A stretch of DNA of 64,000 nt. It comes from Aurantimonas marina (GTDB taxonomy: Bacteria; Pseudomonadota; Alphaproteobacteria; Rhizobiales; Rhizobiaceae). Location of the stretch: NCBI RefSeq assembly GCF_017183135.1, contig NZ_JADDXW010000001.1, positions 372,001 through 436,000 of the forward strand, in the 5' to 3' direction. The position numbers and the translations under genes are program-made. Under the pieces are notes generated by a model that saw only the letters and a program-made list of their open reading frames with translations, was not told where the DNA came from and did no database searches. This document shows, in pieces, positions 24,568-63,186 of the stretch (positions within the stretch are counted from its first letter, which is position 1; the number at the start of each line of letters is the position of its first letter).

Positions 24568-24631
24568 GGGCTTGCCTCTCAATGCAGCGACGTCGGAAGC
24601 GCCGCGCCGCGAGGATCCCGCGAACGCCCGC

Positions 24632-24712
24632 AATCCCTCCGCCGGTACGATCCGGATCAGGTTCGACGGGTTGGCAAGACGCCTCTCAGCCCGAAGGCAC
24701 CCCGTGTGAGCT
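24632..24712 (-). promoter_or_regulatory. TPP riboswitch (thi-box)
   Basis: On the minus strand the conserved aptamer reads in order: GGGGTGCC, GGCTGAGA, a short variable arm, then ACCCGTCGAACCTGATCCGG and GTACCGGCGGAGGGA. These are the P2/P3 pyrimidine-sensing and P4/P5 pyrophosphate-sensing elements of the thiamine pyrophosphate riboswitch. It ends about 65 bases before the thiB start. With no obvious terminator between, translational control is likely. It predicts that thiBPQ is shut off when TPP is plentiful. Confidence 0.92.
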
Positions 24713-24840
24713 GCGGAAAGATTTAGCGACAAGCACCGCCACCGGCAAGAGCAGGACACCCCTGTTCCGGTGACGTAACGAGGGGGACGCGCGTGGTTTT
24801 CCCTCCCCTTCGAAGCTGCGGTGCGCTAGATCAGAGCGCC

Positions 24841-32571: not shown

Positions 32572-35850
<3,279 letters not shown>

Positions 35851-35988
35851 GCGTATCGCTATGTGGGATCACAGGTCGTTTGGAAAAGGTTCCGCCTTGA
35901 TTCGCAATGGCTTCGAACGCCCGAGAACCGGCGCGGATTTCAAGCGAACCACGGCGCGACAAAAAAAATCGATCGACTCGAACTTTTT

Positions 35989-36017
35989 TTGGAACCACTG
36001 GCGCGCCCCCGCATTAT
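35989..36017 (+). promoter_or_regulatory. Promoter of the predicted small RNA
   Basis: TTGGAA (35989-35994) and CATTAT (36012-36017) are separated by exactly 17 bases, each box matching the housekeeping consensus at four of six positions. The predicted start of transcription, about 36021-36024, lies just where the C-rich RNA begins, and a strong terminator follows 70 bases later. Confidence 0.5.
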
Positions 36018-36020
36018 TCA

Positions 36021-36096
36021 GGCACCCCCAAGCGATCATCCCCCTCGATCGCGATATGCAGACGGAAAAAGGCAGCTCCCCCTCGCTGCCTTTTTT
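36021..36096 (+). ncRNA. Predicted trans-acting small RNA with C-rich loops
   Basis: About 76 bases between a promoter and a Rho-independent terminator, with no reading frame. It starts GGCACCCCCAA. A first hairpin (36032-36052) has stem GCGATC/GATCGC and loop ATCCCCCTC. The second hairpin is the terminator, whose loop is TCCCCCTC. The same C-rich, anti-Shine-Dalgarno-like word is therefore displayed three times: in the 5' tail and in both loops. This design is known from rhizobial trans-acting small RNAs that mask ribosome sites (for instance the alpha-r14 group), though I cannot assign it to a family without a search. It lies between the divergent helicase gene and the EamA transporter gene. 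Confidence 0.6.
36066..36096 (+). terminator. Rho-independent terminator of the predicted small RNA
   Basis: Stem AAAAAGGCAGC/GCTGCCTTTTT, loop TCCCCCTC, run of six T. Symmetric, so it could also act on the minus strand. No protein gene ends here on the plus strand, which is the main reason to suspect a non-coding transcript. Confidence 0.85.
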
Positions 36097-36220
36097 CGCG
36101 TCTGGAGGTGGGGTCCTTGCCACACCGGGGCGAAAAACTCGGCCCTTATCGCAAATTCGGTTGCACAATAAGATGGGGTTAACGTAGCGACGAGTTCCCG
36201 CCGCCGTCCCGGATCACTCC

Positions 36221-37105
36221 ATGCAAGCCGGAATTCTCCTGGCCTTCGCCGCCTATTTTTCCTTCGCGGGCGCCGATGCCAGCCTGAAGTGGATCGGCCC
36301 CGACCTTCCCATCTTCGAGATCGGCTTCTTCGTCTCGCTGTTCGCCCTTTTGCCGGCGCTGTTCACCAAGCGCCCGGAAGACAACTGGGGCAACGTCTTC
36401 GTGCCCAAGCGTCCCGGCCTGCTGGCGCTGCGGATGCTGAGCGGCACGCTCGGCGGCATCGGTGGGGTGATTGCCTTCACCACCCTGCCGCTGGCCGAGG
36501 CCTACGCCCTCATTTTTCTCCTGCCGATCTTCGTGACGGTGTTTTCCCGGGTGGTGCTGAAGGAGCCGGTCGGCTGGCGGCGTTGGCTCGCCGTCTTCGG
36601 CGGCCTCATCGGGGTTCTGTTCGTCGTCAGGCCCGGTTTCCGGGAAATCCTGCCGGGCCACTTCGCCGCCATTCTCGTCGCCATCTGCGGCGCGGCGACC
36701 GTCCTCATCCTGCGCGTCCTCGGCCCCTCCGAACGCCGGATCACGCTGATTGGTGCCGTTCTCGTCGCCGGGATTGTTGTCAACGGGGTGTTGATGGTCC
36801 CGAATTTCGAAGCGCCCGGCCCCGCCCTCTGGCCGGTTCTCCTGCTCGGCGGCGTATTCGCCGGCATGGGCCATCTGTTGATCGTCTTCGCCACAAGGCT
36901 CGCGCCCGCCGCTCGGGTGGCCCCCACCCAATACAGCCAGATCGTCTGGGCCGCGGTCATCGGCGCCACCTTCTTCGGCGAATATCCGGACGGTCTCGCG
37001 ATGGTCGGCATGGCGTTGGTCGGAGTCTCCGGCCTCTTCACCCTGGTGCGCGAGGAGCAGCGATTCGGCTGGCCGAGCCGGATTCCGCTGATTCGCAATC
37101 GCTGA
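36221..37105 (+). CDS. EamA/DMT family transporter
   Basis: Inner-membrane protein of 294 residues with ten helices in two EamA repeats (about 1-140 and 145-285). Typical are the first helix GILLAFAAYFSFAGADASLK, the ALRMLSGTLGGIGGVIAFTT segment and the second-repeat APTQYSQIVWAAVIGATFFGE. Members export amino acids, nucleotides or other metabolites; the substrate is unknown here. The 111 bases that follow contain the pyc promoter. Confidence 0.9.
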   Translation: MQAGILLAFAAYFSFAGADASLKWIGPDLPIFEIGFFVSLFALLPALFTKRPEDNWGNVFVPKRPGLLALRMLSGTLGGIGGVIAFTTLPLAEAYALIFLLPIFVTVFSRVVLKEPVGWRRWLAVFGGLIGVLFVVRPGFREILPGHFAAILVAICGAATVLILRVLGPSERRITLIGAVLVAGIVVNGVLMVPNFEAPGPALWPVLLLGGVFAGMGHLLIVFATRLAPAARVAPTQYSQIVWAAVIGATFFGEYPDGLAMVGMALVGVSGLFTLVREEQRFGWPSRIPLIRNR

Positions 37106-62990: not shown

Positions 62991-63186
62991 GATGTCAAAT
63001 CCTAAAATCCATCTTGCGCCAGCCACGCAGCGCCTGCGAATGCGCCAATCCGTCGGCGGTTCCGTCCGCGCGAAGGCGATCAAGACCCCTTCCCGCCCGT
63101 TTGGCCGGCCAGGCGGTTTGCCGGGCGGCGCCAAAGCCCTATTGTCCAACGGCCGCCCCGCCGGAACCGGTCCAACGAAAGCCCCG

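Follow-up and report, generated by a model that had tools for sequence, protein, structure and literature searches.

A conserved, unannotated small RNA gene with a predicted general stress promoter and C-rich loops in Aurantimonas and its nearest relatives

Introduction

What is encoded between the divergently arranged helicase and EamA transporter genes of Aurantimonas marina, and to which family, if any, does it belong? A first-pass annotation of the window, by which we mean the whole stretch of 64,000 nucleotides analysed here, had placed at this position an unannotated small RNA gene with repeated C-rich words and had likened it to the alpha-r14 group. The gene itself has been borne out by orthologs and by its fold, and it falls into no Rfam family; the likeness to alpha-r14 has not survived as a family relationship. 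Literature searches, judged by titles and with many subscription papers outside their range, returned no description of the RNA and no small-RNA study on Aurantimonas or Aurantimonadaceae. Judged by its sequence, the locus is a conserved, unannotated small-RNA gene limited to Aurantimonas and its nearest relatives and equipped with a predicted general-stress promoter: a new family, which would act in a manner resembling that of RNAs already described.

Layout and predicted fold

The features of the locus are as follows.

32572-35850, minus strand: Suv3-type helicase gene, divergent from the EamA gene, with the RNA between them
35991..35995, plus strand: -35 element GGAAC of an EcfG/RpoE2-type promoter, invariant in 23/23 orthologs
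36012..36015, plus strand: -10 element CATT, at a spacing of 16 from GGAAC in all 23 orthologs
36021..36096, plus strand: predicted small RNA of about 76 nt, from conservation and fold (its 5' end placed by means of the promoter and its 3' end by means of the terminator)
36024..36031, plus strand: 5' stretch ACCCCCAA, with a C-run at 36025-36029
36032..36052, plus strand: hairpin 1, GCGATC-AUCCCCCUC-GAUCGC, with loop ATCCCCCTC at 36038-36046; stem invariant in 23/23
36063..36098, plus strand: terminator hairpin, with loop UCCCCCUC (DNA TCCCCCTC) at 36077-36084 and U6/T6 at 36091-36096
36221-37105, plus strand: EamA transporter gene, followed by the pyruvate carboxylase gene (pyc)

Along the plus strand, positions 35991-36096 present in order the promoter, the 5' C-run, hairpin 1, a short linker and the terminator hairpin. 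The first-pass annotation had described a C-run at the 5' end and C-rich loops in the first hairpin and the terminator, all of which lie where it put them; the two divergent protein genes that it saw as flanks are confirmed as the helicase (minus strand) and EamA (plus strand), and no accepted plus-strand gene ends at the terminator, as it had also observed. Its description of some 75 bases without a reading frame needs qualification, since long mechanical open reading frames do span the RNA region; a conserved frame is nevertheless unlikely, because by inspection the orthologs show single-base differences in loop length and a variable linker.

The predicted fold of 36015-36100 is better than that of 200/200 dinucleotide shuffles (z -4.6), and for 36022-36098 the z value reaches -6.95 against 200 dinucleotide shuffles, none of which was better. 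When four orthologs were each folded against 200 shuffles, just one, L089, was equalled by any (1/200). The 5' C-run is unpaired in the predicted folds of the window RNA and of 3/4 orthologs and partly paired in that of L096, and the sequence of the 5' stretch varies among orthologs. The six-pair stem of hairpin 1 is invariant throughout the 23 orthologs and gives no covariation signal either way. Its loop keeps 5 or 6 C followed by UC, with a variable 5' edge and C count, and the terminator loop keeps 4 to 7 C, again followed by UC. In the terminator stem 4/14 pairs are changed on both sides, with 100% of cells paired. The covariation score exceeds that of 500/500 shuffles for a structure which includes the outer stem, a figure to be taken with caution as the sequences are related; further pair types in that same structure were reached by 260/500 shuffles and are not in excess. 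Conservation of the hairpins had been set beforehand as one test of the small-RNA reading, and the hairpins are conserved in the orthologs.

The terminator dyad extends past the T-run, at 36058-36106 of the window, by CAGA and TCTG after a 2-base bulge. This extension (helix 2) partly covaries among orthologs, with 77% of cells paired, though it is expected to lie outside the transcript; quasi-palindrome correction during replication could be the cause. A consensus scan of 35000-37000 found no sigma-70 promoter, and the terminator of the RNA is absent from its 2 terminator matches; the terminator is evident from sequence and predicted fold despite this. The covariance search against Rfam, which the first-pass annotation had called for, returned no small-RNA family on the RNA stretch, either at the gathering cut-off or at E <= 10. 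Elsewhere, at 24616-24714 on the minus strand, the window holds a TPP riboswitch, which scores 59.1 bits where the cut-off is 54.3.

Distribution among relatives

By BLAST the element is found in 7/8 genomes of the genus. In the eighth, G006, pyc is without a match at E <= 1e-120, and the helicase match lacks the first 112 residues of the query and starts at base 2 of its contig; the RNA locus is missing from this assembly because the contig breaks inside the helicase gene. In a sample of the family BLAST gave matches in 17/151 genomes at E <= 0.01, of which the 9 at E <= 5e-8 are real and the 8 at E >= 4.6e-4 look like chance. A covariance model built from 13 orthologs, and applied to 15 first-look candidates per genome, so that distant relatives could be missed, matched 47/297 family genomes at E <= 0.001. 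Fifteen of these matches are strong (E <= 2.2e-15) and fall in 5/109 genera; the source genome holds a single copy at E <= 0.001. In the order sample the model matched 11/297 genomes, namely the source genome, seven of genus g73 and three others. All seven g73 loci carry CCTCCTCCC words and are, by reading, alpha-r14-like. The other three loci of the order sample (L057, L059, L060) have the appearance of plain terminators or chance matches.

An exact-pattern scan of named genomes, which may omit the records closest to that of the window itself, gave 104 stretches. Promoter and terminator occur together in 21/104 (16/80 and 5/24, by one rule over all 104; the 5 positives among the 24 further stretches were first chosen by eye and then confirmed by the rule). 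The positives belong to Aurantimonas (9), Jiella (8) and Fulvimarina (4), with no other titles. The other 83/104 stretches have neither promoter nor terminator and come mostly from unrelated taxa, three of them being from related ones (two from Aureimonas, one from another contig of F. manganoxydans). A search for hidden copies at 15 loci upstream of pyc or the helicase gene in near relatives, made with the model and filters off, yielded nothing convincing in G048, G108, G058, G044, G085 and G094, which by helicase identity are the nearest of the genera that have no match. The one strong match was L208, a known positive, accompanied by its weak image on the reverse strand (E 0.0017). L183, which came next (E 0.04), was rejected as a plain terminator without a C-rich loop.

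Promoter and general stress system

The first-pass annotation had read TTGGAA (35989-35994) and CATTAT (36012-36017), 17 apart, as a -35/-10 pair. The positions hold, but the sigma-70 reading is rejected by column conservation, the conserved unit being GGAAC-N16-CATT. GGAAC reaches 2.0 bits per column in 23/23 orthologs, against 0.05-0.45 in the 15 upstream columns and 0.09-0.67 in spacer columns 2-14, and the base right after it is C in 22/23; the TT before it, which the TTGGAA reading requires, is unconserved. The -10 element is CATT in 19 orthologs, TGTT in 3 and CGTT in 1, with TT invariant. An EcfG-type promoter of the form GGAAC-N16-YRTT is accordingly present in 23/23, the strict CGTT in 1/23, and the window itself has CATT. 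In the 21-locus set of the named scan, promoter conservation is partly selected, because promoter and terminator were both required; the 13 orthologs found by BLAST were picked without a promoter filter, and 0/104 scan stretches have a promoter or a terminator alone. Counting both strands, the 64-kb window has only two GGAAC-N16-YRTT sites; the second, GGAAC-N16-CATT, lies at 63063 on the minus strand.

The published motifs, as given in the available parts of the sources, are GGAAC-N16-CGTT for EcfG1 of R. etli (PMC3892343) and GGAAC and CGTT at a spacing of 15-17 for Caulobacter sigma-T (PMC5869019). The most common -10 of the orthologs is one base off the published CGTT, which counts against an EcfG reading. 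In the source genome NepR was found adjoining genes that by inspection are PhyR-like and EcfG-like, and this stress locus has GGAAC-N16-CGTT before phyR, GGAAC-N16-GATT before nepR-ecfG and GGAAC-N16-GGTT before the next gene; since GATT precedes nepR-ecfG, an A as second -10 base occurs at the stress locus too. From these sequences the promoter class is that of the general stress sigma factor EcfG, as far as motif comparison can assign it. The stress locus lies on contig C3 and the RNA gene on C1, so that they do not adjoin, and none of the 8 EcfG-type sites listed within 20 kb round the stress locus is followed within 110 bases by a C-rich hairpin.

Relation to the alpha-r14 RNAs

Members of the alpha-r14 group (RF02344; NfeR1, cuckoo) resemble the Aurantimonas RNA in carrying C/U-rich words in hairpin loops, which in alpha-r14 pair with translation starts. 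In the available parts of the sources they are described as having three hairpins, each with an unpaired CCUCCUCCC (PMC7143759, PMC10746234), and NfeR1 has a sigma-70 promoter, CTTAGAC-N17-CTATAT (PMC10746234). The Aurantimonas RNA, in contrast, has two main hairpins whose loops consist of a C-run then UC, and an EcfG-type promoter. RF02344 matches neither the window (35870-36220) nor 10 ortholog loci at E <= 10, and there is no CCTCC in 36020-36100. The source genome moreover has alpha-r14-like RNAs of its own, three in tandem on contig C45 (L169; G000:C45:172466-172840), arranged head-to-tail within 375 bases and with last loops CCTCCCCCC; two of the three exceed the RF02344 cut-off, and none has GGAAC in the 60 bases upstream. 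Membership of alpha-r14 is ruled out by the RF02344 tests, the number of hairpins, the lack of CCUCCUCCC and these separate copies.

It might still be argued that the RNA is a diverged alpha-r14 (cuckoo) member which blocks Shine-Dalgarno sequences in the same manner. Its covariance model does weakly reach alpha-r14-like RNAs (E 2e-7 to 6e-4): the weak matches in the family make up 35 rows, of which 15 were inspected, and 14 of these 15 show CCTCCTCCC, the fifteenth being off-centre in view; two of the four tested against RF02344 pass. Both kinds of RNA also have an A-tract before a similar terminator. Set against the missing RF02344 matches, the differing hairpin number and promoter and the genome's own tandem copies, these resemblances leave such a descent unlikely.

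Neighbouring genes

Alternatively, the RNA might act in cis, as an attenuator within the leader of EamA, the gene downstream. In 16/21 named loci EamA starts 185-277 bases past the start of hairpin 1; 15 of these were measured directly, and the sixteenth, F. pelagi, whose named locus is cut short, was measured in a second copy (L038), where the distance is about 220 bases. In F. pelagi the RNA (1.83 Mb), the helicase gene (2.38 Mb) and pyc (2.71 Mb) are nevertheless far apart on one contig, the latter two 543 and 882 kb from the RNA. With both so distant there while EamA stays beside it, the RNA does not depend on helicase or pyc; the helicase gene is found within the sequence around 7/21 named loci. 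Against a leader stand L105 and L138, where EamA is about 1.3 kb (up to 1.34 kb) from the start of hairpin 1, and J. mangrovi (L146/L034), where the distance, likewise taken from a second copy of a truncated locus, is about 0.85 kb. In all three an opposite-strand open reading frame, hydrolase-like by inspection and not in the short gap elsewhere, separates the RNA from EamA.

L105, 4314-5069, opposite strand: hydrolase-like ORF
L138, 3508-4263, opposite strand: hydrolase-like ORF
L034, 1652-2357, opposite strand: hydrolase-like ORF

In L096 pyc is next to the RNA with no EamA between them, and the sequence of L131 ends too early to place EamA. Viral sequences scanned with EamA yielded a single pattern match and no relative. 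The leader reading is quite unlikely on these grounds, with some room left for a cis role because EamA lies within 185-277 bases in 16/21 loci, F. pelagi included. The RNA is probably a gene of its own, usually though not always beside EamA.

Pairing with messengers

Pairing was assessed at 297 starts of genes that had been called roughly in about 384 kb of sequence (<10% of the genome), and at codon-interior controls. Strong duplexes (<= -11 kcal/mol) were predicted for loop 1 at 12/297 starts versus 3/297 controls (Fisher p 0.03) and for loop 2 at 18 starts versus 7 controls (297 each; Fisher p 0.04). The 5' run gave 11 starts versus 5 controls at this threshold, yet 26 versus 26 at -9. The alpha-r14 word scored 31 starts versus 15 controls in the same test, and three permuted words, which are without the C5 run, scored 3 versus 4, 3 versus 2 and 4 versus 6. 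The pairing with translation starts proposed at the outset gains from this commoner occurrence of strong duplexes, but the mean energies of the permuted words lean towards starts about as much as those of the loops, by 0.2-0.6 kcal/mol. The suggested target prediction with the C-rich loops gave the duplex excess but exact 7-base complements of the hairpin loops upstream of 0/297 starts. For the 5' run the complement is TTGGGGG, which occurs upstream of 3/297 starts (0.1 expected); GAGGGG occurs upstream of 4 (1.2 expected) and GGGGGA of 3 (0.8 expected); the permuted word GGGAGG occurs upstream of 8 (1.1 expected), as for any Shine-Dalgarno-like word. The energy model gives a faint indication that the C-rich loops may pair with translation starts.

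Two candidate targets, which we take to be an RcdA-like gene and a 5-formyl-tetrahydrofolate cyclo-ligase-like gene, were discarded, their sites being strong in only 4/8 and 5/8 genus genomes. A further candidate, katG, was rejected as the gene was found in 0/8 genus genomes (TIGR00198, E <= 1e-50), with the control positive in 5/14 genomes including Caulobacter.

Repeated identical words would also suit titration, and with target evidence this weak the RNA could be conceived as an EcfG-induced decoy, its C-rich words sequestering a protein or the G-rich words of other small RNAs. GsrN and PmaR, as described in the available parts of the reports, act on messengers through their C-rich loops (PMC5869019, PMC6234868), and a decoy is on balance rather improbable. 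That the locus is just a terminator or a DNA dyad and yields no functional RNA is very improbable: the dyad does extend past the T-run with partial covariation, and terminator stems can covary for termination alone, but conservation also covers the promoter, at fixed spacing, and hairpin 1 with its loop, and no accepted plus-strand gene in the window ends at the terminator.

Proposed mode of action

A stress-induced, trans-acting antisense RNA is the most likely reading of the locus. What the sequence supplies towards it is conservation, the promoter class, the predicted fold, the conserved C-rich loops and a set of PhyR-NepR-EcfG-like genes. In the established pathway PhyR takes NepR off EcfG under stress. 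We infer that the gene is transcribed by RNA polymerase carrying EcfG, so that removal of NepR by PhyR under stress would lead to synthesis of the RNA of about 76 nt. The RNA would fold into two hairpins that expose C4-C7 words, and a third C-run would lie close to the 5' end. Acting in trans, these words would base-pair with G-rich stretches located at ribosome-binding sites or close to them. Such pairing may change the translation or stability of target messengers, up or down. We regard an EcfG-driven RNA gene whose C-rich words pair in trans with messengers as having a good, though not commanding, probability. More tentatively, it is possible that a lineage-specific family of stress RNAs took over a GsrN-like role in Aurantimonas, Jiella and Fulvimarina, away from the stress locus, with the same pairing word in hairpin 1, the terminator loop and the 5' C-run and with a target set that does not include katG.

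With this proposal the general stress response of Alphaproteobacteria gains a clear small RNA candidate that can be put to the test. If it is true, EcfG-driven C-rich RNAs exist in several lineages at different places, searches by proximity to the stress locus alone miss some of them, and promoter class together with C-rich loops would be a better search key than proximity to that locus.

Comparison with known small RNAs

A number of parallels can be drawn with small RNAs described in other Alphaproteobacteria, in each case from the parts of the reports available. GsrN is a general-stress RNA that acts via a C-rich loop on G-rich targets; its BLASTn homologs are reported only in Caulobacteraceae, typically near the stress locus, C. 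crescentus itself excepted (PMC5869019). By description it shares with the Aurantimonas RNA a promoter for the general stress sigma factor, an exposed C-run in a 5' loop and the status of a unit with its own promoter; the exposed C-rich loop towards the 5' end is present in the Aurantimonas RNA according to predicted folds and alignment. The two differ in that the Aurantimonas RNA is not near the stress locus, in that the GsrN target katG was not found in 8/8 Aurantimonas genomes, and in the recurrence of the C-word in the terminator loop of the Aurantimonas RNA. PmaR of Agrobacterium tumefaciens, whose C-rich loop is required for target control and whose species range is narrow (PMC6234868), is alike, by its description, in having a C-rich loop and a narrow range; it differs in forming one long stem with a large loop, and the available part of the report mentions no EcfG-type promoter. 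ReC64 of R. etli is an 88-nt, EcfG-dependent RNA with a GGAAC-N16-CGTT promoter, situated downstream of phyR-tcrY (PMC3892343). It resembles the Aurantimonas RNA, by description, in its shortness and its GGAAC-N16 promoter, which in ReC64 depends on EcfG, and differs in its position downstream of phyR-tcrY. Judged by these descriptions, the design of the Aurantimonas RNA appears closest to those of GsrN and ReC64.
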